DNA of 64,000 nucleotides from Nakamurella lactea DSM 19367 (GTDB lineage: Bacteria; Actinomycetota; Actinomycetes; Mycobacteriales; Nakamurellaceae). The stretch lies in NCBI RefSeq assembly GCF_000426645.1, contig NZ_KE384550.1, positions 270,733 to 334,732 on the forward strand, read 5' to 3'. The first letter of the stretch is position 1. Each line of letters starts with the position of its first letter. Under the pieces are notes generated by a model. The model worked only from the letters and a program-made list of their open reading frames with translations, searched no databases and was not told the origin of the DNA. Below, piece after piece: positions 7,594-63,133 of the stretch. Both the position numbers and the translations under genes were made by a program.

Positions 7594-7608
7594 GTCCAGA
7601 CATGAAAT

Positions 7609-7654
7609 GACCCCGAGTCGCTACCAGGTCGGGGTCCGGTAGCGATCCGGGGTC
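7609..7654. terminator. Bidirectional hairpin terminator
   Basis: Arms 7609-7625 (GACCCCGAGTCGCTACC) and 7638-7654 (GGTAGCGATCCGGGGTC) pair over 17 positions with one 2-nt internal mismatch and a 12-nt loop. The hairpin lies between a forward gene ending at 7593 and a reverse gene ending at 7757, so it can serve both. No U-tract is present, as is common in actinobacteria. Confidence 0.75.
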
Positions 7655-7756
7655 GCTCTGTATATCGGCACTGGGGCCGGATTCGTTACAGGTCTTCTTG
7701 AGAACTCATGAACGAATCCGAAAACCCCAGGTCGATGGGGGGGTGTGACCGTGAGA

Positions 7757-13404: not shown

Positions 13405-16839
<3,435 letters not shown>

Positions 16840-25663: not shown

Positions 25664-25665
25664 GA

Positions 25666-28474: not shown

Positions 28475-29310
28475 CAGAGTTCGATCCCGAGTGCCGGCCG
28501 CTGGTCGCCGGTCAGAATCCAGTCCAAGGTCTCCTTGGCCAGTGTCGGGGCGCCTTCCGGTACCTCGATCTCACCCAGGGCCGTCAGTCCGGCGATCGCG
28601 TCGGTGGGGGTCCAGAGCGGGAAATCTGAACCGAACACCAGCTTGTCCACCACTCCCCATTCCTGCGCCCGGATCAGCGCGCGGTGCCCGTCGGCCGGTC
28701 GGAACCAGGACGCAGAGACATCGGAGAACACCCGGCGGTTCTTCCGGAGCACCACCATGGTGTCCCGCTGCCACGGGTGGCCCATGTGGGCGATGATCTG
28801 CGTCAGCCCCGGGTGCCGGCGGGCCACCTCGTCGACGACCAGCGGCTGGCTGACGTCCAGCCGGCCCTCCGGCGACGGCGTCGCGCCCATGTGCCACAAC
28901 ACGATCAGCCCGGCGTCGTCGGCCGCGCGGTAGAACGGATCGAACCGCTCGTCCCGCGGATCGAAGTGGGCCAGTACCGGGTACAGCTTGATCCCGCGCA
29001 GCCCCAGCTGCACGCCGTACCGCAGCTGCTCGAGAACGTCGTCATCGGTGGGATCCAGCGCCATGAAGCCGATGCAGTTGGTGGTCGATCGCTTGACGAA
29101 GTCGGCGATCCAGTCGTGCGGGGTGGCCACGCCGGCCCTGGTCGCCCGCAGGCCGAAGACGAAGGTCGTGCCGACCCCCGCCATCGCGGCGTCGTACTCC
29201 TCGACCGAGGTGGAGTGCGCCGGCTCCCGGTACACCGGTTCCCAGTTCTTCTCCCACTCCGGACCCCATTGTTCGGGGGTCATCGCGTGGGTATGGACGT
29301 CGAGAATCAA
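28474..29310 (-). CDS. Amidohydrolase family protein (ACMSD/PDC-hydrolase-like TIM barrel)
   Basis: 278 aa from a TTG start (MILDVHTHAMTPEQWGPEWE) with AAAGG upstream. The metal motif is DVHTH at residues 4-8; further ligands are His in VLWHMGATP and IIAHMGHPW, and the Asp in FGSDFPLWTP. The family covers hydrolases and decarboxylases acting on cyclic or amide substrates; the substrate is unknown. It lies between the D-aminoacylase (45 nt upstream) and the D-threonine-aldolase-like gene (1-nt overlap), so it should act in the same pathway. Confidence 0.85.
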   Translation of the reverse strand: MILDVHTHAMTPEQWGPEWEKNWEPVYREPAHSTSVEEYDAAMAGVGTTFVFGLRATRAGVATPHDWIADFVKRSTTNCIGFMALDPTDDDVLEQLRYGVQLGLRGIKLYPVLAHFDPRDERFDPFYRAADDAGLIVLWHMGATPSPEGRLDVSQPLVVDEVARRHPGLTQIIAHMGHPWQRDTMVVLRKNRRVFSDVSASWFRPADGHRALIRAQEWGVVDKLVFGSDFPLWTPTDAIAGLTALGEIEVPEGAPTLAKETLDWILTGDQRPALGIEL

Positions 29311-31082: not shown

Positions 31083-31097
31083 TGAAACGCGGTTTCG
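31083..31097. promoter_or_regulatory. IclR-type operator, site B (Gfo/Idh-FAH-iclR-ridA operon)
   Basis: TGAAAC-GCG-GTTTCG, one base from full symmetry, 50 nt upstream of the first ATG of the forward operon. An additional half site ATTTCA (31070-31075) precedes it, giving the outward repeat TTTCAC ... GTGAAA. Sites A and B share the divergent promoter region 30988-31146. Confidence 0.75.
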
Positions 31098-31146: not shown

Positions 31147-32169
31147 ATGACCGTCAGCACCGACCCGTTGGGCATCGGTATCGTCGGCGCGGGATTCATC
31201 GCCGACTCCCATGCCCAAGCGGCACAAGGCCATCCGGGCCTCCGACTGGCCGCGGTCAACGACCGCAATCCAGTCGCCGCGGCCGCCCTGGCCGCCAAGT
31301 ACGGCGCCACCGTCAGCCCCGGTCTCGACGAGTTACTGGCCGATCCGGCCGTCGACATCGTCATTATCGGAACCCCCAACGACACCCATGCCGAGCTGGC
31401 TCTGGCTACGGCCGCAGCGGGCAAACACCTGCTGCTGGAGAAGCCGCTGGCGCTGTCCGTCGCCGATTCACAGCGGGTCGCGGACGCCTTCACCGAACGC
31501 GGCCTGACCCTGCTGATCGGTCATACGCACCGGCACAGCGACTACGCGATGTCCGTGTCGGCCGCGCTGCAGTCGGGTGCGGTGGGGACGCCGCGCTCGA
31601 TGCGGCTCGCGATCGCCGGCGGTTGGATCTGGGGTAGCTGGGGCGCCTGGGTGCTCGACCCGAAACGCAGCGGCGGCCACGCCTTCCACAACGGCGTGCA
31701 CCTGTACGACCTGGCGCACTGGTGGATGGGCTCGCCGGTGGAGCGGGTCTTCACCATGGGCCAGAAGATCACCGCAGCGGCTCTGGAGATCGACGATGCG
31801 CTGGTTGCCACCCTCGAGTTCGCCAACGGCAGCACCGCGGTCTGCGAGATCTCCCGTGGCGAGCGGCCGAGGTCGACCAACGTGTTCGAGATCGTGGTGC
31901 ACGGCACTACCGGCACCCTGACCCGCAGGTGGAACTCGGACGGCACCGTTGCCTTCACCGACGAGGTGGTCGGCGCGCTCGGCGCAGCCGGGACCTCGCC
32001 GTTCGGTCGCCAGCTCGGAGTGATGCACGACGCCATCGTCAACGGCACCCCGGTTTTCCCGGCCGTTGCGGACGCCATTCATTCGATCGCGATCGCCGTT
32101 GCCGTCGAGCAGTCGGCCCGCACCGGCGAGGTTGTCGACGTCTCCCGCCAGGAAGGAACGAAGGCATGA
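31147..32169 (+). CDS. Gfo/Idh/MocA-family NAD(P)-dependent oxidoreductase
   Basis: 340 aa. The Rossmann motif GIGIVGAGFIADSHAQAAQG opens the protein, and the family Lys-Pro motif is LLLEKPLALSVADSQRV at about residues 97-113. The C-terminal beta-sheet domain has SGGHAFHNGVHLYDLAHWWM, with His residues typical of the active site. Such enzymes oxidise or reduce hydroxyl groups of sugars, inositols or related compounds. It is first in the forward operon, behind operator site B, and overlaps the next gene by 4 nt (ATGA). Confidence 0.9.
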   Translation: MTVSTDPLGIGIVGAGFIADSHAQAAQGHPGLRLAAVNDRNPVAAAALAAKYGATVSPGLDELLADPAVDIVIIGTPNDTHAELALATAAAGKHLLLEKPLALSVADSQRVADAFTERGLTLLIGHTHRHSDYAMSVSAALQSGAVGTPRSMRLAIAGGWIWGSWGAWVLDPKRSGGHAFHNGVHLYDLAHWWMGSPVERVFTMGQKITAAALEIDDALVATLEFANGSTAVCEISRGERPRSTNVFEIVVHGTTGTLTRRWNSDGTVAFTDEVVGALGAAGTSPFGRQLGVMHDAIVNGTPVFPAVADAIHSIAIAVAVEQSARTGEVVDVSRQEGTKA

Positions 32170-33080: not shown

Positions 33081-33953
33081 ATGAAACTGCTGACCTACCG
33101 CCGTACGGACGATTCGATCGGCCACGGCATCCTGACCGACGACGGCACCGGCGTGATCGAACTCGGTGACGGCGACCTCGCCACCGTGGTCGCGGCCGGG
33201 CTCGTCCCCGCCGCGCCCACCGCTCCGGCACAACGGTTCGACCTCTCGGACGTCACCGTGCTGGCGCCGCTGCAGGCCCCGGGCAAGATCATCTGTGCCG
33301 CCAGTAACTACCAGGAGCACATCGACGAGGGCGGCGGCACCCGGGTCGACAAGACCAGGACGAGCCCGAAGCTGTTCAACAAGTTCGAGAACGCGATCGC
33401 CGGCCCGGACGACACCTTCCTGATCCCGGAGATCTCGGCAGCTGCCGACTGGGAGGTCGAGCTGGCAGTGGTGATCGGTCGCGAGGGCCGCAATATCGCC
33501 ACCGACGACGCGTTGGATCACGTGTTCGGTTACGCCACGGCCAACGACCTGTCGCTGCGGGCACTCGACAAGATCGGCTTCGAGCGCGACACCGAGAATG
33601 CCTGGGTCGGCTTTTTCGACTGGCTCGAGGGCAAATGGGCCGACAACTCGGCTCCGGTCGGCCCGTACCTGGTGACCGCCGATGAGATCCCGGACCCGCA
33701 AAGCCTGCCGATCCGACTCGCGGTGAACGGCGAGATTCGTCAGCAGTCGACGACCGGCGGGATGATCTTCACCTGCGCGGAACTCATCGCGTTCGCCTCC
33801 CGGCTGTGTACCTTGCGCCCGGGGGACATAATCCTCACAGGCACACCAGCAGGTGTGGGTGCGACGACCGGGACCTACCTGAACGACGGGGACGTCATGG
33901 TTGCCGAGGTCGAGGGACTGGGGAAGCTGGTGACTCCCGTCCGCACCGCATGA
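33081..33953 (+). CDS. Fumarylacetoacetate hydrolase (FAH) family protein
   Basis: 290 aa. The short N-terminal domain (MKLLTYRRTDDSIGHGILTD) is followed by the FAH fold: KIICAASNYQEHIDEGGG, PKLFNKFENAIAGPDDTFLI, then the metal ligands in AADWEVELAVVIGREGRNI and the later ATANDLSLRA. The C-terminal ILTGTPAGVG is strongly diagnostic. Members hydrolyse, hydrate or decarboxylate 2-oxo acids such as acylpyruvates, using Mg2+. Position in the operon suggests it handles a 2-oxoacid formed from the imported compound; the exact reaction is open. Confidence 0.9.
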   Translation: MKLLTYRRTDDSIGHGILTDDGTGVIELGDGDLATVVAAGLVPAAPTAPAQRFDLSDVTVLAPLQAPGKIICAASNYQEHIDEGGGTRVDKTRTSPKLFNKFENAIAGPDDTFLIPEISAAADWEVELAVVIGREGRNIATDDALDHVFGYATANDLSLRALDKIGFERDTENAWVGFFDWLEGKWADNSAPVGPYLVTADEIPDPQSLPIRLAVNGEIRQQSTTGGMIFTCAELIAFASRLCTLRPGDIILTGTPAGVGATTGTYLNDGDVMVAEVEGLGKLVTPVRTA

Positions 33954-33972: not shown

Positions 33973-34800
33973 GTGGCGACAAAGGATGACGATGAAGTCG
34001 GCCGGTACCGGGCGCAAACTCTGACCAGAGGTCTCACGGTGCTGCGCACCATGGCCGACGTACGTGAGCCGGTGACGCTGCAGGACCTGCACGACCGCAC
34101 CGGGATCCCCAAGCCGACCCTGGTGCGGCTGCTGGCCATCCTCACCCAGGAGGGTTGCACCATCCGGCTGGATGAGCGACCCACCTATGGCCTGGGGCCG
34201 ACGGTGACCGCCATCGCCGCCGGCGTCGCCGACGATCTTCATCCGGACGAGCTGGCCCGGCCGTACCTGCAGCGGTTGTCCGCGGCGGTCGGGCACACGG
34301 CGAACCTGGGGGTGCTGACCGGGAATCAGGTGCTGCACCTGTGCGTGGTGCTGGCCGACCGGCCGATCCGCTACATCGTGCACACCGGCAGCCGGGACGA
34401 CCCGCACTCGACCGGACTGGGGAAGGCATTGCTCGCCCAGCTGGACACGGCCAGCGTCCATCGGATCGTCGGCGACGGGCCGATGGATGCCAAGACACCC
34501 CGCACCATCACCACGCGTTCGAAACTGGACGCCGAGCTGAAGCGGGTCCGGAAGCAGGGTTACGCCTACGACGATCAAGAAGGTGCGCTCGGCTTGAGCT
34601 GCTTTGCGGTTCCTGTGGTCGTTGGCCAGAGATCTGTTGCTGCGGTGAGTATTTCCGGTCCGGCCGGCGAGCTGTCGGCCGATCGGCACGCGGACATCGT
34701 TCCGGAGCTGACGAAGATCGCCACCCAGATCGCCGCCGACCCACGGCTGGCAAAGGCCTTGGTCACCATCCACCCGGGCGACGGACTCGACGAGTCCTGA
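33973..34800 (+). CDS. IclR-family transcriptional regulator, candidate controller of the surrounding locus
   Basis: 275 aa from a GTG with GGAGG 8 nt upstream. The N-terminal winged helix is at about residues 17-75: LTRGLTVLRTMADVREPVTL, then DLHDRTGIPKPTLVRLLAIL. The effector-binding IclR domain follows (HLCVVLADRPIRYIVHTGSR, DDPHSTGLGKALLAQLD, YAYDDQEGALGLSCFAVPVV). IclR proteins bind palindromes of the TGAAAN(2-3)TTTCA type as tetramers and respond to small carboxylates or related ligands. Such palindromes precede six transcription units in this window, including the operon that contains this gene, which implies autoregulation. Confidence 0.93.
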   Translation: MATKDDDEVGRYRAQTLTRGLTVLRTMADVREPVTLQDLHDRTGIPKPTLVRLLAILTQEGCTIRLDERPTYGLGPTVTAIAAGVADDLHPDELARPYLQRLSAAVGHTANLGVLTGNQVLHLCVVLADRPIRYIVHTGSRDDPHSTGLGKALLAQLDTASVHRIVGDGPMDAKTPRTITTRSKLDAELKRVRKQGYAYDDQEGALGLSCFAVPVVVGQRSVAAVSISGPAGELSADRHADIVPELTKIATQIAADPRLAKALVTIHPGDGLDES

Positions 34801-34832: not shown

Positions 34833-35219
34833 GTGCCTGCCATTGAAAGTCCCGACATTCCAGCCCCTGGCGTCCCGTTGAGTGCCGGATACCGCGCCGG
34901 TGATCTGCTGTTCGTGTCCGGTCAGATCGCCAGCAACGGCGACGGCTCGGTCCTGATCGGCGACTTCGAGGACGAGGTGAACAAGACCCTCGACAACGTC
35001 GAGGCAATCCTGAAGGCCGGCGGCGCCGACTTCTCGAACGTGGTGAAGGTCAACGCGTGGCTGTCGAACTCGTTGCTGTTCGCCAAGTTCAACGAGATCT
35101 ATCGGCAGCGGTTCGCTGCGGCTACCGACGTTCCACCGGCGCGGACCACCATGGTGGTCGCGTTCGGACATGCCGACGTGCGGGTCGAGGTCGACGCGAT
35201 CGCCTATCTGGGCGAGTGA
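34833..35219 (+). CDS. RidA family protein (reactive imine/enamine deaminase)
   Basis: 128 aa, GTG start after GAGAGGAAA. LFVSGQIASNGDGSVLIGDF and TLDNVEAILKAGGADFSNVV are RidA hallmarks. The substrate-binding arginine is Arg104 in PPARTTMVV, so imine hydrolysis is likely intact. RidA hydrolyses 2-iminoacids formed by PLP enzymes and flavin amine oxidases. That fits the PLP enzymes, the class III aminotransferase and the sarcosine-oxidase-like protein encoded here. It is last in the forward operon, followed by a strong terminator. Confidence 0.93.
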   Translation: MPAIESPDIPAPGVPLSAGYRAGDLLFVSGQIASNGDGSVLIGDFEDEVNKTLDNVEAILKAGGADFSNVVKVNAWLSNSLLFAKFNEIYRQRFAAATDVPPARTTMVVAFGHADVRVEVDAIAYLGE

Positions 35220-35317: not shown

Positions 35318-36424
35318 CTAGATCCGAACGTGGGCGGCGATCCTGAACTCCGGCGCAACTCCGCGGTCGCCGGTCGCCAGGCCGGCCAGCGACGCGCCGA
35401 TCGCGGGGGTGAACTTGAATCCCTGACCGGAGAAGCCCGCTCCCACCACCACCGGACCGACCCGGTCGAGTACGAAGTCCGAGGTGGGCGTCATCGTGTA
35501 GGTGCAGCTGATCATCTCGGGCCGCTCCGCGTCGAGCCCTGGCATCCATGACCGCACGTAGCTCCGCAGCGCGGCCAGCTCCTCGGCGTCCCAGTCATCC
35601 CGTCGGGCGTCCGGATCGACCGGCACTCCCCCGCCGTGCCAACCGATCTTCACGCCACGGCCGGGTTCCAGCAGGCCGTAAATGCTGCCGTACGGCGAGT
35701 CCACGATGTGCCGGAACGACGGCCACGGGACCTCTGCAGCCGGGAAATGCGCCGGCTGCACCTGGAACACCGCCAGCTGCGGAAGATCCACCAGCGCGCC
35801 GAGCACCTTCGATGTCCAGGCCCCGACCGTCACGATCGCCCGCTTCGCGGTGACAACCTGCGGACCGTCCTCGCCGTCGATGGTCACCGCGACCTCGTCA
35901 TCGCCGATGACCTCCAGTCGCACCGCCGGGGTCCGGTAGCGCACCTCACCACCATGGCGGGCCACGCCTTCGTGGAAGGCCTCGACCGAATCCCAGGCGC
36001 GCACCCGGCCACCGTCGGGGGCGAACACGACGCGGCCGTCGAACCTGATACCCGGCCAGCGGGCCGTCGCCTCGGCGACATCCAATTCTCCGGCCCGGAA
36101 CCCCGAAGTTCGGAGGGCGGCGAGGATATCGTCTGCCCGGGCGTCCCCGCCGTGGCCGACCATTCCGACCCGGTCGATGAGCACGCGGTCGCTCTCGGCT
36201 TCCAGCTCGCGCCAGAGGCGGTCGGACTCGACGAGCAGGTCCTGAAAGTACGACTCGGCGTACAGCAGGTTGAAGTTGCGGAAATCGCCATGGGAAGCAC
36301 CGCGATCGTGACGCGGTCCGAAGCGCTCGAGCAGCAGCACCGAACGGCCGGCCCTGGCCAGACTCCACGCCGCGGCCGCGCCCATCGCCCCGCCGCCGAT
36401 CACTACAGTTTCGACATCAACCAC
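35318..36424 (-). CDS. FAD-dependent oxidoreductase, monomeric sarcosine oxidase / N-methyl-amino-acid oxidase type
   Basis: 368 aa. The dinucleotide-binding motif is TVVIGGGAMGAAAAWSLARA. The flavin-face segment is GASHGDFRNFNLLYAESYF with His45 and Arg49, the covalent FAD cysteine is Cys307 in ISCTYTMTPTSDF, and GFSGQGFKFTPAIG has the substrate-side Lys. In sarcosine oxidase and SolA a second Arg (position 52) binds the substrate carboxylate; here that position is Asn52, so the substrate may differ. The reaction should oxidise a secondary or N-methyl amine with O2, giving an imine and H2O2. It is last in the aminotransferase operon, 15 nt after the propeller gene. Confidence 0.88.
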   Translation of the reverse strand: MVDVETVVIGGGAMGAAAAWSLARAGRSVLLLERFGPRHDRGASHGDFRNFNLLYAESYFQDLLVESDRLWRELEAESDRVLIDRVGMVGHGGDARADDILAALRTSGFRAGELDVAEATARWPGIRFDGRVVFAPDGGRVRAWDSVEAFHEGVARHGGEVRYRTPAVRLEVIGDDEVAVTIDGEDGPQVVTAKRAIVTVGAWTSKVLGALVDLPQLAVFQVQPAHFPAAEVPWPSFRHIVDSPYGSIYGLLEPGRGVKIGWHGGGVPVDPDARRDDWDAEELAALRSYVRSWMPGLDAERPEMISCTYTMTPTSDFVLDRVGPVVVGAGFSGQGFKFTPAIGASLAGLATGDRGVAPEFRIAAHVRI

Positions 36425-37590: not shown

Positions 37591-38943
37591 TCAGCCGCGA
37601 CTGACGATGTCGTCGTCGATCATGCTCTGGAGCGCGTCCTGGGCGGCATTCAGACTCATGTCGATGTCCTCGGCCGTATGACTGCCCGAGATGTGGTTGC
37701 GCTTGAGTGGCAACGGCAGCATCAGCACACCACGGTCGATCATTCTGCGGTGGAACTGGATCGCCGCCTGCACGTCGTTCTCCAGCAGGTCCTTGAACCC
37801 GCTCGCCCGGTGGTCGATGAAATAGGTGGAGAAGGTACCACCGAAACCGACCACCTCAGCGGTGATCTCCAGCTCCGACAGGATCCCCCGCAGCCCACTG
37901 CGCCAGCGCTCACCGAGAGCATGAGTCCTGGTGTAGAAGTCCGGGTTGTCCTTGAGGTAGGTGATGGTCGCGATCCCGGCAGCACACGAGGTGGCATTGC
38001 CGTTGAACGTACCCATCAACGCGACCTTGCCGCCGGCCGCATCGAAGTTCTGCATCAACTCCCGCTTACCGCCCAGCCCCGCCACCGGATACCCGTTGCC
38101 CATGGCCTTGCCGAAGGTGGTGAGGTCAGGGGTCACTGCGCAGATCTGTTGGTAGCCGCCGAGAGCGTGCCGGAACCCGGTGATCACCTCGTCGAAGATC
38201 AGCAGTGCACCCTGCTCGGTGGTCAGAGTCCGCAGGCCCTCGATGAATTCCTTGGTCGGCACCAATGCACCGACATTGTGCGGGATCGGCTCGACGATCA
38301 CCGCGGCGATCTGCTCGGGGTACTGCTCGAACAGCGTCTTCACCGACTCCAGGTCGTTGAACTCCGCGATCAGCGTCGACTGCCAGGAATCCGGCAAGAT
38401 TCCCGCCGTCACCGGGTCGTCGCCATAGGCACGTTCCTTCGGCGAGATCACGTTGCGGGCAACGGATTCGCTCCAGCCGTGGAAGCCGCCCTGGAACTTG
38501 ACGAGGTACTTGCGGTCGGTGCTCGCCCTGGCCAGTCGGATCGCGTAGGCGACCGCCTCACTGCCACTGTTGAGAATCACCGTCTGCTCGACGCTGGGCA
38601 GCACCTCGACGATCAACTCGGCGAGCTTCACCTCTGCCTCGCTGACGCCATAGCCACTGAGGTCCAAGGTGTCAGCTGCGGCCGCCATCGCATCTTCGAT
38701 CACCGCGTGCCGGTGTCCGAGCAGGATCGCCCCGAACGCCGCGTGGTAATCCAGGTATCGATTTCCGTCGAAGTCCGTGATGTACGCACCGGCGGCCGAC
38801 TCGAACGCGTACGGCGCACCGTTGCGCCGGGTTCCTGAGTTCACCCCACCGGGGATCACTGCGGTCGCCCGGTCGGCGAGCGCCTTGCTCTTGGTGTGGC
38901 TATCGGCGCTCACCGGAGTGAATGTCAGATCTGCTGCGGCCAT
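37591..38943 (-). CDS. Class III aminotransferase, glutamate-1-semialdehyde-aminotransferase-like
   Basis: 450 aa. PGGVNSGTRRNGAPYAFESA and ITDFDGNRYLDYHAAFGAIL match the N-terminus of GSA-aminomutase-like enzymes. The cofactor pocket is ILNSGSEAVAYAIRLARA, LLIFDEVITGFR supplies the Asp that contacts the pyridine ring, and the PLP lysine is in TTFGKAMGNGYPVAGLGG. Relatives transaminate or isomerise omega- or beta-amino groups and some act on D-amino acids; haem synthesis is unlikely given the context. It is first in a reverse operon with the propeller and amine oxidase genes, 40 nt downstream of perfect operator site C. Confidence 0.9.
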   Translation of the reverse strand: MAAADLTFTPVSADSHTKSKALADRATAVIPGGVNSGTRRNGAPYAFESAAGAYITDFDGNRYLDYHAAFGAILLGHRHAVIEDAMAAAADTLDLSGYGVSEAEVKLAELIVEVLPSVEQTVILNSGSEAVAYAIRLARASTDRKYLVKFQGGFHGWSESVARNVISPKERAYGDDPVTAGILPDSWQSTLIAEFNDLESVKTLFEQYPEQIAAVIVEPIPHNVGALVPTKEFIEGLRTLTTEQGALLIFDEVITGFRHALGGYQQICAVTPDLTTFGKAMGNGYPVAGLGGKRELMQNFDAAGGKVALMGTFNGNATSCAAGIATITYLKDNPDFYTRTHALGERWRSGLRGILSELEITAEVVGFGGTFSTYFIDHRASGFKDLLENDVQAAIQFHRRMIDRGVLMLPLPLKRNHISGSHTAEDIDMSLNAAQDALQSMIDDDIVSRG

Positions 38944-38982: not shown

Positions 38983-38997
38983 TGAAATACCATTTCA
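38983..38997. promoter_or_regulatory. IclR-type operator, site C (aminotransferase operon), perfect palindrome
   Basis: TGAAAT-ACC-ATTTCA is a fully symmetric 15-bp site in the 74-bp gap between the ABC ATPase stop (39018) and the aminotransferase start (38943). Its position gives the aminotransferase operon its own regulated promoter. Confidence 0.85.
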
Positions 38998-39017: not shown

Positions 39018-40082
39018 TCACGGCGCGTCGGCGTACGCTCCGACCGGCTCGCCACCGAGGACGTCGATCGCCTGCGGGAAATGGCAGGCCATCTCATGGA
39101 CCGACCCGGCCCGGCGCCCCGGAGTCGGCAGCAGCACGGGCGCCTGCTCGGCGCAGATGTCCTGCGCCTTCCAGCATCGGGTGCGGAACCGGCATCCACT
39201 GGGTGGGTTGCTCGGGCTCGGCACGTCGCCACGGAGCACGATCCGCTCCCGGACGACGGCGGCATCCAGATCGGCAGACGGGATGGCCGACAGCAACGCC
39301 TGGGTGTAGGGATGGGTCGGCCGGGTAAAGATCTCCTCCCGCGATCCCACTTCCACGATCCCACCGAGGTACATCACGGCGACCCGGTCACAGATGTGCC
39401 GGACAACGGACAGGTCGTGCGAGATGAACAGGTAGGCCAGTCCGCGCTCGTTCTGCAGGCGCTCCAGTTGGTTGAGCACCTGCGCCCGGATCGAGACGTC
39501 AAGGGCGGACACCGGTTCGTCGAGCACGATCACTCGCGGCTCGAGCACCAGCGCTCTGGCGATCCCGATCCGTTGCCGCTGGCCGCCGGAGAACTCGTGG
39601 GCGTACCGCGATCCCTGCTCCTGGGACAGTCCGACTGCAACCAGGGCATCAGCCACCCGTTCGGCACCGGTGCGGCCGTTCTCGCTACGGCCGTACCGCT
39701 TCTGCACCCGGAGCGGTTCGGCGACGATGTCGTGCACCGTCATCCGGGGACTCAGCGATGCGTACGGGTCCTGGAAGACAATCTGCACGTTGTTGCGCAG
39801 TCCGTCCTCGCCGGCCAGATCGACCTGCTTGCCGTCCAACAGGACCTGACCGCCGGTCGGTGTCTCCAGCCCCATCAACATCCGCCCGGTGGTGGACTTC
39901 CCGCACCCGGATTCGCCGACCAGGCCGAGGGTCTCACCGGCCTGCAACTCGAAACTCACGCCGTCGACCGCGCGAACCGGCGGTTTCGGCTTCGAGAAAA
40001 TGCCGGTTCGCGTCGTGAAGTACTTCTGCAGGCCGACGGCAGCCAGCACCGGCTCGGCCGGCGGACGTGGTTCTTCACTCAT
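39018..40082 (-). CDS. Second dipeptide ABC transporter, ATP-binding protein (DppF type)
   Basis: 354 aa from [20 protein letters not shown]; the longer reading to 40256 lies within the neighbouring gene. Walker A is [19 protein letters not shown], the signature is [16 protein letters not shown], Walker B is [16 protein letters not shown], and the C-terminal Cys segment is [16 protein letters not shown]. Its ATG overlaps the stop of the DppD-type gene (ATGA at 40079-40082). It is the last gene of the second transporter unit, which begins at 44973 behind operator site D. Confidence 0.93.
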
Positions 40083-41158
40083 GAGCGGACCTCCGAATCG
40101 TCCGGCGCGACCTGCTGCTCGGGTGCGCTCGCACCGACCTCGTCCGGAAAGTGGCAGGCGGACAGATGGTCTGTGCCGACCTCGAGCAACGGCGGCCGTT
40201 CGGCCGCGCAGATGTCCCTGTCCCGGCCGATCACGCACCGCGGCTGGAACGGGCACCCCTTCACCTTGGCCAGAATGCTGGGCGGATTACCGGGAATCGG
40301 CGTCAGCTCGGCGTCGTCCCTGGTCAACGACGGCAAGCTGGCCAACAGCCCGGCCGTGTACGGATGACGCGGCTGGCGGAAGATGGTGGATACCCTGCCG
40401 GTTTCCATCACCCGTCCGCCGTACATCACCATCACCCGCTCGGCCAGTTCGGCGACGACCCCGAGGTCGTGGGTGATGAAGATGGTCGCCGCGCCGGTCT
40501 CCTGCTGACTGTGCCGGATCACGTCGAGCACCTGTGCCTGGATGGTGACGTCCAGCGCTGTCGTGGGTTCATCGGCGATCAACAGCGCCGGGTCGTTCGC
40601 GATCGCCATTGCGATCATCGCCCGCTGCCGCATACCGCCGGAGAACTCATGCGGGTATTGCCGAGCCCGCAGCTCGGGTTGTGGAACGCCCACCAGGGCA
40701 AGCAGTTCGACGGCCCGCTCCAGCGCCTTGTCCTTGGACAGTCCTCGATGAATCCGAATGCCTTCGGCAATCTGCCGCCCCACCCGCTGGACCGGATTGA
40801 GCGCCGTCATCGGATCCTGGAAGATCACCCCGACCGCGCTCCCGCGGAGTTTGCGCAGCGTCCGCTCCGACGCCCCGACCAGTTCCTGGCCCTGCAAGAC
40901 GATGGAGCCACCCGCGATCCGGCCTGGCGGTGACGGGACCAGACCGAGAATGGACATCGCCGTCACCGACTTCCCCGAACCCGATTCGCCGACCACGCCA
41001 AGAATTTCGCCGGCCGCGATGCTGAACGAGACGCCGTCAACGGCGTAGGCGCGACCGGCGTCGGTGCGGAACTCGACCTGCAGATCGGTGACCTGCAGCA
41101 GTGGTTGTTCGTCGCCGATCGGCGCGGTGTCCTTCGTGATCGAGACCTGTTCCGTCAT
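40079..41158 (-). CDS. Second dipeptide ABC transporter, ATP-binding protein (DppD type)
   Basis: 359 aa from [20 protein letters not shown] (the reading to 41194 overlaps the permease gene and is rejected). Walker A is [18 protein letters not shown], the Q-loop is [16 protein letters not shown], the signature is [16 protein letters not shown] and Walker B is [18 protein letters not shown]. The C-terminal segment is [18 protein letters not shown]. It forms the ATPase pair with the downstream gene and lies 10 nt after the DppC-type gene. Confidence 0.93.
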
Positions 41159-41168
41159 ATCGGCACTC

Positions 41169-42101
41169 CTAGCGCTGCCGGGGATCCAGCGCATCGCGCA
41201 GGCCGTCCCCGACGAAATTGATGGCCAGCACGGTGAGGGCGATCGCCAGCCCCGGTGGCAGCCAGAGCCACGGCATCGACGAGATCACCGTGTACTGCTG
41301 CGCCGCCTGCAGCATGTTGCCCCAACTCGCAGTCGGTGGCTGGATCCCGACGCCGAGGAAGGACAGCGCGGCTTCGCTGAGGATGAATCCGGCCACCTCG
41401 AGCGTCATCAGCACCACCACCTGACTGAGCGCCGCCGGCAATAGGTGCCGACTGATCAGCCACAGTGGTTTGGCGCCGAACGCGCGCGACGCCTGCACGT
41501 ATTCGCGCTCCCGCAGCGACAGGATCATCCCGCGGACCACCCTGGCCGTCTGGGTCCAGCCGAACAGGGCCAGCAGGATCACCATCACGATCACGTTCGC
41601 CCCGAAGATGCCGACCACGACGATGATCGCGACCAGGTTGGGGAACGACATGAACACGTCGGCCATCCGCATGAAGGTCGAATCCACCCAGCCGCCAAGG
41701 GTGCCGGCCAGCGCACCGATCAGCGACCCGATGAGCACCGCCAGCAGGGCTGCCGAAAAGCCGATGAGCATCGAGATCCGGCCGCCGTAAACCAGTCGGG
41801 CGAATACATCACGACCGACGCCGTCGGTGCCCAGCAGGTGGTCACCGGTTGGCTTGGCCCTGACATTGAGCGGATCGACGGTGTAGGGATCGAGGTGCAT
41901 GAACACCGGCAGCAACAGCACGCCGAGCACCAGCACCACCAGCACCACGGCGCCGGCTACGGCGAGTCTGTTGGACATGTACCGCCGCAAGGCCATTCGC
42001 GATGGCGAGCGCCGGACCGCGGCAAGTCCCTCTGCCGCGTCGTGCGAATGGTCCGCGGCCGGCGCCGCCGCCGGCAGGTTCGGATCAAAGGTTGCTGTCA
42101 T
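41169..42101 (-). CDS. Second dipeptide ABC transporter, permease (DppC type)
   Basis: 310 aa with a first helix at about residues 47-70 (LAVAGAVVLVVLVLGVLLLP), the outer loop DHLLGTDGVGRDVFARLVYG and five further helices. The EAA loop is in ASRAFGAKPLWLISRHLLPA. It ends GDGLRDALDPRQR. It overlaps the DppB-type stop as ATGA (42098-42101), so the two permease subunits are made together. Confidence 0.92.
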   Translation of the reverse strand: MTATFDPNLPAAAPAADHSHDAAEGLAAVRRSPSRMALRRYMSNRLAVAGAVVLVVLVLGVLLLPVFMHLDPYTVDPLNVRAKPTGDHLLGTDGVGRDVFARLVYGGRISMLIGFSAALLAVLIGSLIGALAGTLGGWVDSTFMRMADVFMSFPNLVAIIVVVGIFGANVIVMVILLALFGWTQTARVVRGMILSLREREYVQASRAFGAKPLWLISRHLLPAALSQVVVLMTLEVAGFILSEAALSFLGVGIQPPTASWGNMLQAAQQYTVISSMPWLWLPPGLAIALTVLAINFVGDGLRDALDPRQR

Positions 42102-43057
42102 CGGAGTTTCACCCGCGGATCCACCAGTGTGTAGAGGACGTCGGCAACGAGGTTGGACAGCAGTACCAGGATCGCGGTCAACATCGCGAACGCGATCAGC
42201 ACCGGGAAGTCGTTCTTCGCAGCCTCGTCGACCACCATCGAACCCATCCCCGGCCAGGCGAAGACGGACTCGATGAGTACCGCCCCGCTGAGCAGCTGCG
42301 GAATCATGTAGGCGATGACGGTCAGGATCGGGATCAGCGCGTTCCGGAACACATGCTTGACGACCACTCCGCCGCGGGTCAGGCCCTTGGCGAGCGCCGT
42401 TCGCTGGTAGTCGGCCGTCAGTTCGCTGATCATCGCGCCGCGGACGAACCGCAACAGGCCGGCCGACATGGTCAGGCCCAGGATGGTCACCGGCAGGATG
42501 AGGTGCTTGAGTGCGTCCGCCGTGGTGTGCACGCCGGTCGTCGACATACCGGCCGACGGCAGGAGTTTGAGCTTCACCGAGAACAGATAGATGGCCATGA
42601 TGCCGATGAAGAAGCCGGGCGTCGAAATGGTCAACATGCTGAAGAAGGTGATGACGTAATCGACGATGCGGTTCTTGCGGACGGCGGCCCAGGTACCGAA
42701 GACCAGCGCGATCACGATGGCCAGGATCATGCCGAGGCTCATCAGCTCCAGCGTGGGGACGATCCGCTCGCCGATGATCTCCGAGACCGGACGGCCGTTG
42801 ACGATCGACAGTCCCAGGTCGCCGGTGAAGGCGTGTCCGATCCAGGTCAGGTACTGGATCGGCAGTGCCCGGTCCAGGCCGAGCTCATGCCGTTTGGCGG
42901 CGATGAAGTCCTGGGTCGCGGACGTGTATTGATCCGGCGGGATCTGCATCGCGATCGGGTCGCCGGGCGCCAAGTGGATGAGGGTGAACACCACAATGGT
43001 GATCAGGAAGAACACCAGGACGGTGGAGGCGAGCCGGCGCAACAGGTAGGCACCCAC
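42098..43057 (-). CDS. Second dipeptide ABC transporter, permease (DppB type)
   Basis: 319 aa. MGAYLLRRLASTVLVFFLIT is the DppB first helix, and LAPGDPIAMQIPPDQYTSAT starts the outer segment. The EAA loop is in RTALAKGLTRGGVVVKHVFR. It ends DVLYTLVDPRVKLR. The GTG start has a near-ideal GGAAGGAGGTGA ribosome binding site and, unlike the first transporter, is not covered by the intercistronic hairpin (43105-43141), which lies about 50 nt upstream. Confidence 0.92.
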   Translation of the reverse strand: MGAYLLRRLASTVLVFFLITIVVFTLIHLAPGDPIAMQIPPDQYTSATQDFIAAKRHELGLDRALPIQYLTWIGHAFTGDLGLSIVNGRPVSEIIGERIVPTLELMSLGMILAIVIALVFGTWAAVRKNRIVDYVITFFSMLTISTPGFFIGIMAIYLFSVKLKLLPSAGMSTTGVHTTADALKHLILPVTILGLTMSAGLLRFVRGAMISELTADYQRTALAKGLTRGGVVVKHVFRNALIPILTVIAYMIPQLLSGAVLIESVFAWPGMGSMVVDEAAKNDFPVLIAFAMLTAILVLLSNLVADVLYTLVDPRVKLR

Positions 43058-43104
43058 GAGTCACCTCCTTCCATAGGTTCTCCGGCAGGGCCGGTGCGTT
43101 CATG

Positions 43105-43141
43105 CAGCGTTGGGGGCCGCGGCGAGCGGCCCCCAACGCTG
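43105..43141. promoter_or_regulatory. Very strong intercistronic hairpin in the second transporter operon
   Basis: CAGCGTTGGGGGCCGC (43105-43120) and GCGGCCCCCAACGCTG (43126-43141) pair perfectly over 16 bp with the loop GGCGA. It sits between the binding-protein stop (43183) and the DppB-type start (43057). It is likely a partial terminator or 3'-end stabiliser that gives excess binding protein over transporter. Confidence 0.82.
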
Positions 43142-43182
43142 GGGTGGTCACTCAGGGTGACCAACAGATCCTGCCCGATCGA

Positions 43183-44973
43183 TCAGGATGCCTTCTTCCA
43201 GTTCCACGGTTCGAACCAGGAGTTGGCCAGCGCCTGCGGCTGGAAGCCCTGGAACGTCTTGCCGACGGCCCACAGGCTCTTCGGCGAGTACAGCCACATC
43301 TGCGACGGGTCCTCGTTCTCGATCTTCGACGCCTGCTGGTAGAGCTTCGTCCGGGCCGCCAGGTCGTTCTCCTGGTTCGCCTTGGTGAGCAGGGCGGAGA
43401 ACTCCTTGTTGCAGTACAGGCCGTTGTTCGGTCCCTTGCCCGGCTCCTGGCACGAGGTGATCGGGATGACGCTGGCCGGCTCGGCGGTGTAATCGCCACC
43501 GCCGTACATGAACATGTCGAACTTGCCGACCGAGACGTGGTCCGGGATCCAGGACGCCTGCACCTGCTTGAGTTCGATGTTGATGCCGACGTTCTTGAGC
43601 TGGTTCTGCATCACCTGCGCAGCGGCGTCGCGGTCGGGGTTGCCGGCCGAGATCCAGGCCAGCTCAACCGGCTGGCTGGAGTCCCAGCCCGCCTCGGTCA
43701 GCAGTTGCTTGGCCTTGTCCGGATCGTAGGGGTAGTCGTTCAGGTCGGCGGCCTGCCACGGCGGCCCGAAGACGCTGTTGCGGACGATTCCCTGTCCCTT
43801 GATCGCGCCCTCGACGATCGACTTGCGGTCCGTCCCGTACAGGAAGGCCTGCAACACCTTCGGGTCCTGGAACCGCTTCTGCGACTGGTTCCACGCCGCC
43901 CGGACGAACCCTGCGGTGTCGATGGTGTCCACCGTCACGCCGTCGAAGCCCTTGACCACGTCCAGGTCCACCGGCGCGATGTTGGTCAGATCGAGCTCGC
44001 CGGTCTGCAGCTGCTGGGTCGCCACGTCGGAGGTCAGGATCTTCAGGAAGACGTCCTTGACGCCGACCTGGTAGCGGAAGTTCGGGTTCGCCGTCAGGTG
44101 CACGTACTGGTCGGTCTTGAACTCCGCCACGGTGAACGGCCCGGTGCCGACCGTCGGCTTGGCGAAGTACGGATCCTGGGTGAAGGTCTTGATCGGCAGC
44201 TTGCCGACGACATGCTCCGGGAGGATCTCGATCGTGCCGATCTGGCCGAGGAAGCCGACGTTCGGCTCCGTCAGCTTGATGACGAAGGTCTGATCGTCCG
44301 GCGTGGAGAATCCGGAGATGGTCTTCGCCTTGCCGGACGCGAAGTCGTCGATGCCCTCGACCGTGCTGAACAGGGTGGCCGCCCGGCTCAGGTCCATGTT
44401 CGGATCGGCCGCCCTGGTGTAGGTGAACAGCACGTCCTTGCTGGTCAGCGGCTGCCCGTCACTCCACAACACGCCCTTCTTGATCTTGAAGGTGAAGGTC
44501 TTGGCATCCGAACTGATGGTCGGTGTCCCGTCCGCCAGATCCGGCACCAGCGCGCCGCTGGGGCTGGCGATCAACAGCGGTTCGTAGACCAGCGAGATGA
44601 CTTCCTGATCCGGCCCGGAAGCGCCGTGCAGCGGATTGAAGAAGCCGTTCGGCTTCTGGTACATGAACAGGTTCAGCGTGCCGGTGGCGTTCGCTGCCGC
44701 CTGTCCGGCCTCGGCCGGGGTACCGGTAGTGCCCTCGGTCGCCTCCGCGCCCCCGGTGGTCGCCGCGCTGGTCGCCGCGGTACCTCCGCTGGTCGCCGCG
44801 GTATCGGCTGCGGATGACGCCTCGGTGGTCCCGGCGGCGGGGGAGGACGTCTGTCCGGTCGCCGCCGATGTGGTCTCGTCCGCAGGGTTACTCGGGTCCG
44901 AGCACGCGGACAACACCATGGCCGCCGCCACAATTCCGGCCACCATGGCCAGCATCTTGCGTTGTCGCTTCAT
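43183..44973 (-). CDS. Second dipeptide ABC transporter, substrate-binding lipoprotein
   Basis: 596 aa from the ATG at 44973, chosen over the GTG two codons upstream because AAGAGG would abut that GTG. The lipoprotein signal is MKRQRKMLAMVAGIVAAAMV followed by LSAC (Cys24). A long Ser/Thr/Ala/Glu linker of about 75 residues follows. The family 5 binding-protein body includes VISLVYEPLLIASPSGALVP, FTFKIKKGVLWSDGQPLTSK and VLQAFLYGTDRKSIVEGAIK. It is first in the operon, with operator site D at 45035-45049 in its promoter region. It is diverged from the first binding protein, which implies a different ligand. Confidence 0.93.
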   Translation of the reverse strand: MKRQRKMLAMVAGIVAAAMVLSACSDPSNPADETTSAATGQTSSPAAGTTEASSAADTAATSGGTAATSAATTGGAEATEGTTGTPAEAGQAAANATGTLNLFMYQKPNGFFNPLHGASGPDQEVISLVYEPLLIASPSGALVPDLADGTPTISSDAKTFTFKIKKGVLWSDGQPLTSKDVLFTYTRAADPNMDLSRAATLFSTVEGIDDFASGKAKTISGFSTPDDQTFVIKLTEPNVGFLGQIGTIEILPEHVVGKLPIKTFTQDPYFAKPTVGTGPFTVAEFKTDQYVHLTANPNFRYQVGVKDVFLKILTSDVATQQLQTGELDLTNIAPVDLDVVKGFDGVTVDTIDTAGFVRAAWNQSQKRFQDPKVLQAFLYGTDRKSIVEGAIKGQGIVRNSVFGPPWQAADLNDYPYDPDKAKQLLTEAGWDSSQPVELAWISAGNPDRDAAAQVMQNQLKNVGINIELKQVQASWIPDHVSVGKFDMFMYGGGDYTAEPASVIPITSCQEPGKGPNNGLYCNKEFSALLTKANQENDLAARTKLYQQASKIENEDPSQMWLYSPKSLWAVGKTFQGFQPQALANSWFEPWNWKKAS

Positions 44974-45034
44974 TGACACCTCTTCGGCTGGTCGAAGAGA
45001 CGAGATCGACTGATCCCGTCCGAACTACACGGAT

Positions 45035-45049
45035 TGAAACGCTATTTCA
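45035..45049. promoter_or_regulatory. IclR-type operator, site D (second dipeptide transporter)
   Basis: TGAAAC-GCT-ATTTCA, 62-76 nt upstream of the binding-protein ATG. Five bases of each half (TGAAA and TTTCA) are symmetric. Confidence 0.82.
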
Positions 45050-45152: not shown

Positions 45153-45167
45153 TGGAACGGCATTTCG
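45153..45167. promoter_or_regulatory. Possible weak IclR-type operator, site E
   Basis: TGGAAC-GGC-ATTTCG has two changes from the shared pattern and lies 104 bp beyond site D, further upstream of the same transporter operon. It may be an auxiliary site. Chance similarity is possible. Confidence 0.4.
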
Positions 45168-45873: not shown

Positions 45874-46722
45874 TCAGGTGACGATGGGGAATTCCGCGCG
45901 AACGTTCATCCTGGAATAGGTGATATGGCTGGTCAGTGCGTCGAACTCCTGCGCCTGGGGAGTCAACGGGAGCAGCGAATGGGTCTCGCTGCGGAACCGG
46001 ACATAGGCTTCGGCGACATCGACGCCGGCGGCGCGCCCGAACTCGCCGTTGTAGGACTCGATCAACTTCCGGGCGAAGAGGCCGTCGTAGCCCTGGCTGA
46101 CGAAGCAGTCCATGGCCGCGATCTTGCGTCCGACCACCGGGGTGATGTCGATGAACATGTCGTTGCGCTCGCCGTAACTGGACAACGCATCGCGGGCGAT
46201 CGACTGCATTCCGGTGAAAAAGACCTGTCGCACGTTCACTTCGGCCTGGCCATCGAGGACGGTCAGGAACTGGGCAGCGCGGTCAAGGGCCGCAATGGCC
46301 GTCATCGTGGCGGTGGTGTGCGATGATCCCGAGACAACTGGATTCAGCGGGTAGTCACAGATCAACACGTCCGGGCGGTGCAGCGCGATCTGCTCTGCAA
46401 CCTGATCCACCATCTCTTCACTCACGACGGCCATACGATCGTCGTTGTCGAGTGTCACGACGGTGCCGATTCCGATGATTTCGGCGGCCCGTCGTAGCTC
46501 TTCCTTCTTGTTGTCAACGACGTCCTGCAGGCCGGCCGCCGCAATGGCCGGGTCCGGATTTTCCTTGCGCATCTCTTCGGCGTACTTGTTCGGGTGGATC
46601 CGACCGCCGTGGGTGAGTATGACGGCGACGATTTCGTCGCCATTATCCGCATGCCGTGCCAGCATGCCGCCGCAGTTGGTGATGGTGTCGGCGGGATGGG
46701 CGTAGATCGTCATGATCTTCAT
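45874..46722 (-). CDS. PIG-L/LmbE-family deacetylase homologue with altered HPDDE motif
   Basis: 282 aa from MKIMTIYAHPADTITNCGGM; the in-frame extension to 46794 runs across operator site F and is not used. The fold is LmbE/PIG-L-like: VAVILTHGGRIHPNKYAEEM, IIGIGTVVTLDNDDRMAV, DVLICDYPLNPVVSGSSHTT. The zinc motif normally reads AHPDDE; here it is AHPADT (His9, Asp12), so the first Asp, the general base in MshB-type deacetylases, is Ala. The later His (SSHTTA) is kept. Relatives remove N-acetyl groups from sugars and sugar conjugates. This one may use another base or have a different role. Confidence 0.82.
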   Translation of the reverse strand: MKIMTIYAHPADTITNCGGMLARHADNGDEIVAVILTHGGRIHPNKYAEEMRKENPDPAIAAAGLQDVVDNKKEELRRAAEIIGIGTVVTLDNDDRMAVVSEEMVDQVAEQIALHRPDVLICDYPLNPVVSGSSHTTATMTAIAALDRAAQFLTVLDGQAEVNVRQVFFTGMQSIARDALSSYGERNDMFIDITPVVGRKIAAMDCFVSQGYDGLFARKLIESYNGEFGRAAGVDVAEAYVRFRSETHSLLPLTPQAQEFDALTSHITYSRMNVRAEFPIVT

Positions 46723-46768: not shown

Positions 46769-46783
46769 TGAAACGCGATTCCA
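46769..46783. promoter_or_regulatory. IclR-type operator, site F (PIG-L-type gene)
   Basis: TGAAAC-GCG-ATTCCA, one base from the shared pattern in the right half, 47-61 nt upstream of the ATG at 46722. The spacing to the start is similar to that of sites B and C. Confidence 0.72.
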
Positions 46784-60857: not shown

Positions 60858-61688
60858 CTACCAGCCGGATCGAGGATCGCGCCCCGTCAGGCCGAGCAGC
60901 GCCTCGGCATTGCGCCCCAGGATCAGCGCTCGATCCTCGTCGCTGATCTCCGCGTCCACGATCCGGAACCGCTGCATCCCCGCCAGGTACAGCGGTGTGT
61001 CGGAGCCGAACAGGATCCGGTCCGCGCCGATTTCCGCGACGGCCCATTCGATGAGTCCTGGCCAGATGCTCCGTGCGCTGGACGTGTCGGTCCAGATATT
61101 GCAATGCCGACTCGCCTGCACGGCACGCACCTGGTGGCTCGGGTCGTTGTCCCACCCGTTCCCCAGATGCGCGAGGATCAGCCGCGCATCGGCGTACCGA
61201 TCCAACAGCGGCACATAGTCCATCGGCAGGCTGTTCTGCTCACCGCTGTGGGTGAGCACCAACGCTCCCCGCTCTGCGCAGAACCGGAAGATCTCCTCCC
61301 CGAACTCCGTGATCGGATAGCCATGCTCCTCCGGATGGATCTTCACGCCGACGCACCACGGATGCTGCAGCATCCGGTCCGCCTGCTCGAAGGTCTCCGG
61401 TTCACGCGGGTCGATGATCACCCACTGCAGCAAACCCGGTGTGGCCGGCACCATCTTCTCGGCGTCGGCATTGCCGATCACTGGGTTGGCGCTGAACCTG
61501 GGCACCAACCCACGGAGCGGCGAGATGACCGTCCAGTCGATGTTCGATCGTTCGGCGCGGGCTGCGACTTCGCCCGCCTCGCCCGACATGAACCTGTCGA
61601 CCAGTTCACCCAGTCCTCGGTCCATCGATCCGTAGTGTCCGTGGACATCGACGGTGAACACGTCCGGCGCGCTGTCGGTCACGGTCAC
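60858..61688 (-). CDS. Amidohydrolase family protein (ACMSD-like TIM barrel), satellite pair
   Basis: 276 aa from a GTG that overlaps the upstream stop (GTGA at 61685-61688). The metal motif is FTVDVHGHYGSMDRGL, then VGVKIHPEEHGYP, LVLTHSGEQNS, LILAHLGNGWDNDPSH and ILFGSDTPLYLAG for the remaining ligands. It is a distant relative of the amidohydrolase at 28474-29310. It is co-transcribed with the DHDPS-like gene, whose promoter has perfect operator site G, so it likely belongs to the same catabolic regulon. Confidence 0.85.
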   Translation of the reverse strand: MTVTDSAPDVFTVDVHGHYGSMDRGLGELVDRFMSGEAGEVAARAERSNIDWTVISPLRGLVPRFSANPVIGNADAEKMVPATPGLLQWVIIDPREPETFEQADRMLQHPWCVGVKIHPEEHGYPITEFGEEIFRFCAERGALVLTHSGEQNSLPMDYVPLLDRYADARLILAHLGNGWDNDPSHQVRAVQASRHCNIWTDTSSARSIWPGLIEWAVAEIGADRILFGSDTPLYLAGMQRFRIVDAEISDEDRALILGRNAEALLGLTGRDPRSGW

Positions 61689-62635
61689 TCCCCGGCCGCA
61701 GCGGGCTCCCAGAGCCACTCCGGCGCATGGTCCGTGATCCATTCGCGCAGCACCGCAACGTCGTCGGCGTTCGCCGCGGAATACGGCGCGCGACAGCGGA
61801 CATCGGTCGACAGGAACCCGGTGGCGCTGCCAACGAGACGGTCCCAGGCGCTGTCATGGAATCCGCGTCCCTCGAATGCCTGGAACGCGAAGTCGTACAG
61901 CTTGTTGTACGCGTCGACGTCGGCCTGCAGGGCGACCTGATCCTTCGCCTGCAGATGCTCGAACATCCGAAGGATCTTGGTCGGGTTCGCGTACACGGTG
62001 GCGCTGCAACCGCCGATCACCCCGCTGTCGGCCATCTCTGCCCACAGACCCTCGCTGACGAAGACGTTGACGAATTCGGAGAGCTCCCGACTGCCCTCGA
62101 GCGTGCACCCAACGGTGTCCGCGTTCGCCTTCACCATCAGATAGTTCGGGGCAGCGTCATGGATCGCGCGGTGCTGGTCGACGGTCAGCGTCTGCTTGCT
62201 CCGTGTCGTCTCGTAGACCGAGAACGCCATCGGAGCGGCCGCCTGGGCCACCGTCACGAAGAACGGGACCACCTCATGATCGGCGACCGCAAGCCAGAAC
62301 GGCAGCGCGACCTGGACGGCATCCGCGCCGGCCTCCTTGGCCCAGGCGATCCGGTCGAGCACCCCACGAGTACTGGTAGCGGTGCAGCCGATCATCGCCG
62401 CCGTGGAGTACTTGTGCGCCTCGTCGACCGTCGCAACGGTGATGGCCTTGAACTCGTCCTCGGAGATCGCATAGAACTCACCCGACGTCCCGCCGGTGTA
62501 GATGCCCGGCGCCCCGTTCTCCGCACTGCGCGCGACGTCCGCGCGATACGTTCTCTCGTCAAATTCGTCATTCTCGTCCCAGGCGACCGGCAGGCCGGCC
62601 CATGGTCCGATGAAGGACTCTCGTGTCAGCATCAT
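61685..62635 (-). CDS. Dihydrodipicolinate synthase / N-acetylneuraminate lyase family aldolase
   Basis: 316 aa, taken from the ATG at 62635 (MMLTRESFIGPWAGLPVAWD); a GTG seven codons upstream is also open. The class I aldolase signatures are YTGGTSGEFYAISEDEF (GTSGE), Tyr141 in AFSVYETTRSKQT and the Schiff-base Lys169 in NYLMVKANADTVG. Family members condense or cleave pyruvate with an aldehyde; the housekeeping lysine-pathway enzyme is unlikely because of the catabolic context. Perfect operator site G lies 80-94 nt upstream, linking it to the IclR locus at 27-47 kb. Confidence 0.9.
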   Translation of the reverse strand: MMLTRESFIGPWAGLPVAWDENDEFDERTYRADVARSAENGAPGIYTGGTSGEFYAISEDEFKAITVATVDEAHKYSTAAMIGCTATSTRGVLDRIAWAKEAGADAVQVALPFWLAVADHEVVPFFVTVAQAAAPMAFSVYETTRSKQTLTVDQHRAIHDAAPNYLMVKANADTVGCTLEGSRELSEFVNVFVSEGLWAEMADSGVIGGCSATVYANPTKILRMFEHLQAKDQVALQADVDAYNKLYDFAFQAFEGRGFHDSAWDRLVGSATGFLSTDVRCRAPYSAANADDVAVLREWITDHAPEWLWEPAAAGE

Positions 62636-62714
62636 GTTCCGCAGAAGACCTTTCACCAGTTGCCGGAGTCGGACGTGCGACAGGAACCGCCGCGAAGGGC
62701 CGTCATTGTTGCGA

Positions 62715-62729
62715 TGAAATCACATTTCA
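62715..62729. promoter_or_regulatory. IclR-type operator, site G (DHDPS-like operon), perfect palindrome
   Basis: TGAAAT-CAC-ATTTCA is fully symmetric and identical in both arms to site C, 24 kb away. It is about 28 kb from the iclR gene, which shows that the putative regulon is not confined to the main cluster. Confidence 0.85.
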
Positions 62730-63133
62730 CGAACTGCCACAACCCTCGGTTCGCGACCACACGACGGCGTCGGCCGGGCCACGCCGGGCGCCGCACCACG
62801 AAGGGACAACTGGCCAATCTCGTTGCGAACCCCGCCGTTCGCTCGTACCTTCGAGGTACACACGAAAGGAGGTGGTCCGAAGTTGTATTCCCAACGGACT
62901 CGTGAGGTGACTGGCCGCTAGGCCGTCCACCGCCCGCCAGGAGCCGGTCGATCGGGAGATCGAGTGACGACCTGGCCAGTACCGGACAGTCACCCGACCC
63001 CCGGGCCGCCGACATCTTGTCCACGTCGGCTCGACCTCCGGCCGCATCCTTTCGGCATCGGCTCAGGCTGTTTGCTGCGAGTTCCCTGCGGCCGCTGGTC
63101 AGGCCCGGGGGTTGTCCGTACCTCCGCCTGGGG
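62730..63133. other. Intergenic region with an SD-like micro-ORF and palindrome
   Basis: 404 bp without a normal-length gene. GTACCT-TCG-AGGTAC (62845-62859) is a perfect palindrome, followed at once by AAAGGAGGTG (62865-62874), an almost ideal Shine-Dalgarno sequence. The rest shows nothing that I can assign. Confidence 0.5.
62883..62921 (+). CDS. Possible 12-residue leader peptide
   Basis: A TTG start at 62883 lies 10 nt after AAAGGAGG (62865-62872) and encodes about 12 residues (MYSQRTREVTGR) before TAG. The exceptional ribosome binding site argues for translation; the product is too short to judge by composition. No forward gene follows within the next kilobase, so an attenuator role is not obvious. 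Other frames through the same site also stop soon. Confidence 0.3.
   Translation: MYSQRTREVTGR

Follow-up and report, generated by a model that had tools for sequence, protein, structure and literature searches.

The aldolase operon and its operator

The window analysed here is a stretch of 64,000 nucleotides from contig C7 of the Nakamurella lactea DSM 19367 genome. Towards its end lie two minus-strand genes, which encode a DHDPS/NAL-family class I aldolase-like protein (61685-62635) and an Amidohydro_2 protein with a GTG start (60858-61688). Pfam places the former in PF00701 (66.9 bits against a gathering score of 22.1, E 1.6e-18) and the latter in PF04909 (94.7 bits, E 1.1e-26); the Amidohydro_2 protein retains the metal-ligand pattern HxH, His, His, Asp and found no match when searched against solved structures. 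The stop codon of the first gene and the GTG of the second overlap in a 4-nt GTGA, and the amidohydrolase start codon is probably that at 61688. Since homologues of the DHDPS-family protein begin with M(M)LTR, its start was set at 62635, which leaves the edge of the operator, site G (TGAAATCACATTTCA, 62715-62729), 79 nt upstream. Directly upstream of the operon and on the opposite strand there is also an Rfam match to the actinobacterial sRNA Ms_IGR-5 (62858-63120, +, 73.5 bits), spanning a short ORF that ends YSQRTREVTGR.

The DHDPS-family protein carries the Schiff-base Lys176 (counted from the GTG at 62656) and the pyruvate motif GGTSGE (G-[TS]-[TS]-G-E), and the catalytic Lys is one of 82 invariant columns in an alignment of nine homologues of the subfamily. 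Ungapped extension of the alignment with NanA also puts it on the NanA lysine. The catalytic Tyr is present as Tyr148 and is not invariant across the subfamily, being replaced by Asn in one homologue (L007). The AlphaFold model is a TIM barrel (pLDDT 90.8) whose top Foldseek and VIA match is YagE (Z 32.4, 291 aligned residues, rmsd 2.3, 16% identity), other DHDPS and NAL chains lying within about 1 Z of that score (Z about 32 to family members). By sequence, the best solved structure is NanA (E 1e-9, identity about 20%), and the NCBIfam equivalog cut-offs are missed for DapA (43 vs 206 bits), NanA (45.9 vs 382) and KdgD (43 vs 374). By its sequence, then, the protein is a member of an uncharacterised subfamily, whose homologues retrieved here are 48-66% identical to it; a search against plasmids gave no match. 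Fold and gene context suggest that it is a class I aldolase splitting a 2-keto-3-deoxy sugar acid into pyruvate and an aldehyde. In two of the genomes carrying the subfamily, aspartokinase-like genes with AA_kinase and ACT domains lie directly behind its gene (L005:1442-2791 in a Latescibacterota MAG and L007:10959-12338 in a Gemmatimonadetes MAG; Pfam was run for L007 only).

Site G shares its arms, TGAAAT/ATTTCA, with the operator at 38983-38997 in the main cluster, as the original prediction had it. In genome-wide pattern searches the perfect form TGAAAN5TTTCA occurs four times in 5.82 Mb, against about 0.29 expected (Poisson P 2e-4), and all four occurrences are on C7 between 267697 and 333461 (66 kb), three of them preceding catabolic operons in the window and one lying 3 kb outside it. 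Scored with a PWM built from 26 sites that did not include it, site G reaches 25.8 bits, second in the window to the 38983 site (26.3 bits), and 3 Mb of random sequence contains no 15-mer with an equal score.

The main cluster and a probable regulator of the IclR family

The main cluster is bordered by two tandem ClpP genes (25052-26274, -), syntenic in a congener, G001. From there it comprises a D-serine dehydratase/D-threonine aldolase-type PLP enzyme of the OngC-like fold family (DSD, 27365-28474, -), an Amidohydro_2 protein (AH2, 28474-29310, -) and a D-aminoacylase/OngB-like N-deacetylase (29356-30987, -; phmmer 1m7j, E 1.2e-65, and PpOngB 9kb1, E 1.6e-59), divergent from a Gfo/Idh/MocA dehydrogenase gene (31147-32169, +). 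These are followed by an FAA hydrolase (33081-33953, +), whose best curated model, 2,4-didehydro-3-deoxy-L-rhamnonate hydrolase, is matched below its cut-off, an IclR-family regulator (33973-34800, +; Pfam IclR_C and HTH_IclR), a RidA-family protein (34833-35219, +), an FAD-dependent amine/amino-acid oxidase of the DAO family (35318-36424, -), a class III, glutamate-1-semialdehyde aminomutase-like aminotransferase (37591-38943, -), a peptide/opine-type ABC importer with two ATPases, two permeases and an SBP_bac_5 protein (39018-44979, -) and a PIG-L-type deacetylase (45874-46722, -). The ABC transporter at 18.1-24.8 kb carries no operator and was not counted in the regulon. Elsewhere in the window, an Rfam F6 sRNA (7604-7659, -) scores just above its gathering score.

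Operators precede the aminotransferase gene (TGAAATACCATTTCA, 38983-38997; footprint conserved in G001, G019 and G184), the SBP/ABC operon (TGAAACGCTATTTCA, 45035-45049; conserved with its flanks in G001) and the PIG-L gene (TGAAACGCGATTCCA, 46769-46783; same layout at a paralogue on contig C12 and at the G001 orthologue). An operator-like site conserved in G001 separates the D-aminoacylase gene from the divergently oriented Gfo/Idh gene (TGAAACGCGGTTTCG, 31083-31097), and a weaker second site lies 104 nt beyond 45049 (TGGAACGGCATTTCG, 45153-45167). The 14 kb that separate the PIG-L gene from the aldolase operon hold genes for PEPCK, RibD_C, an FAD-linked oxidase, a MocR-type GntR regulator, an AlkZ-like protein, APH, an ABC exporter, MarR and GH38, so that their earlier description as housekeeping and efflux genes was roughly right.

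The consensus of IclR group 2 is TGRAACAN1-2TGTTYCA (PMC8222616). The motif observed here, TGRAAYN3RTTYCA (15 bp), fits it with the inner CA/TG only partly kept, and it recurs in four genomes that keep an orthologue of the IclR protein (G000, G001, G019 and G184), for which reasons the IclR at 33973-34800 is the probable regulator and owner of the operator. In G001 the orthologue is 71% identical and the cluster is syntenic, with sites at the same genes; in G019 and G184, more distant members of the order, identity drops to 44-45% and the sites (TGGAACGCGATTCCA, TGGAACCAGATTCCA and TGGAACAGGATTTCA) are found at the aminotransferase gene or at the gene divergent from it. The protein misses the NCBIfam cut-offs for KdgR (84 vs 275 bits) and BhcR (162 vs 350). 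The home genome has ten IclR matches in all, and the paralogues, 25-33% identical, might own some of the sites; binding of site G by this particular IclR is what the motif and its co-occurrence with the regulator point to.

A probable regulon scattered over the genome

Is the aldolase operon a lone satellite of the main cluster? The full motif is matched exactly at ten places in the genome, against about 0.7 by our own composition estimate, and five of the ten are on C7. In nine cases the site sits shortly before a gene for AH2, the aminotransferase, SBP, PIG-L (twice), DHDPS, BNR (twice) or Zn-ADH; the tenth overlaps an aldo/keto-reductase ORF at its 5' end, and an SDR gene accompanies this ORF. 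Off C7, the exact sites belong to two secreted BNR genes (C3 and C10), the Zn-ADH gene (C11), a PIG-L gene 70% identical to that of the window (C12) and the aldo/keto reductase (C6). The perfect operator lying 3 kb beyond the window (L001:16698-16712) precedes tandem Amidohydro_2 genes (L001:14851-15699 and 15748-16599) that are 86% identical to each other and 54-57% to the AH2 gene of the main cluster. With one mismatch, sites were found at a MR dehydratase and hydroxyacid dehydrogenase pair (C19), a DUF4862 gene (C15), an ADH gene (C10:200002) and a GH36 gene (C5), the first three units being respectively 50% and 49%, 35% and 44% identical to genes of a Streptosporangiaceae MAG. Most of a further 24 one-mismatch sites are inside genes or beside no gene, and only C10:200002 was taken from them as a regulon candidate; about half of the one-mismatch sites fall in coding sequence and are likely chance matches. 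Both here (L075:2066-2968) and in G001 (L120:2433-3380), the DUF4862 gene has its start codon at, or within, an operator-like site.

The congener G001 carries sites at its own MR and hydroxyacid dehydrogenase pair and at its DUF4862, PIG-L and BNR genes, so that the regulon is conserved, computationally, in two species. At the AH2 operon, the C19 operon and the MR operon of G001, a TTGAC -35-like box directly precedes the palindrome, an arrangement that would suit repression through promoter occlusion. The G001 cluster also has a second SBP gene (L044:3119-4954) with a perfect operator of its own (L044:5006). Several genes that are clustered in the Streptosporangiaceae relative (MR dehydratase with hydroxyacid dehydrogenase, DUF4862 and ADH) are dispersed over other contigs here, each with the operator at its start, which makes the aldolase operon one of about ten scattered units that probably form a single regulon. 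The proposed tie between the operon and the main cluster through the operator therefore stands, but not the view of a sole satellite linked by the operator only, as there are at least nine other scattered units.

The aldolase gene in relatives

Searches for a close orthologue of the DHDPS-family gene came back empty for the 16 remaining congeners, for 396 further genomes from the order and for 395 more from the phylum. The genome collection yielded eight relatives, the closest of them (66%) being the Streptosporangiaceae MAG. There the gene is part of one contiguous cluster, on a single contig, in which at least 11 main-cluster genes have relatives: amidohydrolase (51%), aminotransferase (57%), D-aminoacylase (37%), Gfo/Idh (45%), FAA hydrolase (51%), importer genes (39-55%), DSD (42%), RidA (33%) and an IclR that is only 27% identical. 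Its direct neighbours are DUF4862, MR dehydratase, D-2-hydroxyacid dehydrogenase and ADH genes, and a second DHDPS-family gene, located after a divergent IclR gene, is closest to L-2-keto-3-deoxyarabonate dehydratase. An orthologue inside an equivalent cluster, which the original prediction had proposed to look for, does therefore exist. No operator was found in that cluster at up to two mismatches, so the motif is not conserved as far as this MAG. In MAGs of Opitutales and Rhodopirellula, the partner of the DHDPS homologue is an amidohydrolase that shares about 51% identity with that of 60858-61688.

Within the genus, the suggestion that the locus was once contiguous finds no support: none of the 16 other genomes has the orthologue, and G001 keeps the main cluster without a close one, so the aldolase step must be dispensable there or done otherwise. 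Nor is the operon found alongside the GH38 orthologues of congeners. One DHDPS gene near two G001 sites (G001:C12:431515/431691) was considered as an orthologue and rejected, being 21-22% identical, with the sites belonging to genes about 5 kb away.

Proposed pathway and alternatives

The reading that we favour, at a probability of roughly 0.7, is that the aldolase operon is a unit of a scattered IclR-controlled regulon (TGRAAY-N3-RTTYCA) serving a probable non-phosphorylative route for sugar acids, some of them derived from N-acylated amino sugars. The IclR at 33973-34800 would control the scattered units through these operators, repressing by promoter occupancy until it is released by an intermediate of the pathway. 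The substrate would be supplied by secreted BNR and GH36 glycosidases together with the peptide-type ABC importer; PIG-L or D-aminoacylase proteins would remove its acetyl group, and dehydrogenases would then oxidise it. Amidohydro_2 proteins may open the resulting lactone, and a 2-keto-3-deoxy acid could arise either from the MR dehydratase or from the DSD enzyme with RidA. The DHDPS-family enzyme would convert this acid into pyruvate and an aldehyde, which fits the earlier idea of a pyruvate-type aldolase step encoded apart, and the FAA hydrolase might serve a parallel, oxidised branch. No KDG kinase, hexosaminidase or RpiR regulator is found among the annotated main-cluster genes, and the gap left by the missing kinase would be closed by an aldolase that acts directly on the keto acid in its unphosphorylated form.

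How did the operon come under this control? That it was acquired recently or recruited locally, gained its operator after the regulon existed and was never in a contiguous ancestral cluster of the lineage, seems to us somewhat better than an even bet; it concerns origin and is compatible with the reading favoured above. The missing orthologues in genus, order and phylum, the congeneric GH38 genes without the operon beside them and the stand-alone pairs in Opitutales and Rhodopirellula all suit it, whereas the actinobacterial relative with the gene in its cluster would also allow for loss or dispersal. Recruitment via operator gain is, in any case, at least as likely as the break-up of an ancestral cluster. 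Ownership of site G by a different member of the IclR family whose group-2 box is similar, leaving the operon independently regulated, is improbable: the motifs of the group are indeed similar across regulators (PMC8222616) and the genome has several paralogues, but the exact TGAAAN5TTTCA is confined to the surroundings of the main cluster, and the genes that have the site in common correspond to a single cluster of another actinobacterium. It is far more improbable still that site G is a chance palindrome before an unrelated operon. A single 15-bp palindrome would be weak by itself, but the genome counts against expectation and the PWM result in random sequence effectively exclude chance, and the conserved regulon and the cluster co-occurrence strongly disfavour it too.

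As for the chemistry, the DHDPS-like enzyme might instead be a sialic-acid-type (nonulosonate) lyase in a regulon that degrades sialoglycans. NanA as the best sequence match among solved structures, the secreted BNR sialidase-like proteins and the PIG-L deacetylases speak for this, and against it speak the low identity and score towards NanA and the MR dehydratase and L-2-keto-3-deoxyarabonate-dehydratase-like neighbour in the relative's cluster, which point to aldonates; on balance it is unlikely, if less so than control by another IclR. Sialic-acid-like acids are nonetheless a possible substrate of the favoured route. More tentatively, and at somewhat less than even odds, the system may be a non-phosphorylative pathway under IclR control that has not been described before, comprising about ten operons and acting on an N-acylated amino-sugar or nonulosonic acid. 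In it, a new DHDPS subfamily would perform the pyruvate-forming cleavage together with an Amidohydro_2 lactonase dedicated to the pathway, and the genes that one lineage keeps contiguous would be dispersed under common regulation in another. Overall, the analysis replaces the lone satellite operon by a regulon open to testing: about ten scattered loci are linked by a single operator, and their counterparts are partly contiguous in a distant relative, so that tests of gene content, regulator and pathway can be combined. It also gives a first functional context to the DHDPS subfamily, present in several phyla, and to DUF4862.

Comparison with known systems

In the ong cluster of Pseudoalteromonas prydzensis, OngB, OngC and OngD turn N-acetylglucosaminate, from oxidised chitin, into 2-keto-3-deoxygluconate (PMC9537276). 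The three families occur together here (at 29356, 27365 and 34833), as a D-aminoacylase-type deacetylase, a PLP deaminase of the DSD/D-threonine aldolase fold and RidA. However, ong has an RpiR regulator, an SSS transporter and a kinase with KDPG aldolase, in place of which there are here an IclR, an ABC importer and a DHDPS-type aldolase; without KDG kinase (kdgK), hexosaminidase and RpiR among its annotated genes, the cluster was not classed as ong. YagE, a 2-keto-3-deoxygalactonate/gluconate aldolase, is the closest fold and belongs to the same DHDPS/NAL family, but at 16% identity a likeness in specificity is putative.

The KdgR regulon is likewise scattered and feeds 2-keto-3-deoxy-acid metabolism. 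Together with other IclR group-2 regulons, it shares with the present one an IclR-family regulator and an AT-rich TGAAA/TTTCA palindrome, and differs from it in its genes and probably in its substrate, the IclR described here being far below the KdgR model cut-off. The non-phosphorylative L-rhamnose and L-fucose pathways, in turn, proceed through a dehydrogenase, an Amidohydro_2 lactonase and a MR dehydratase, and then through an FAA hydrolase or an aldolase. The same set of families is found in the present regulon, which adds to it DSD, RidA, aminotransferase, DAO and D-aminoacylase.
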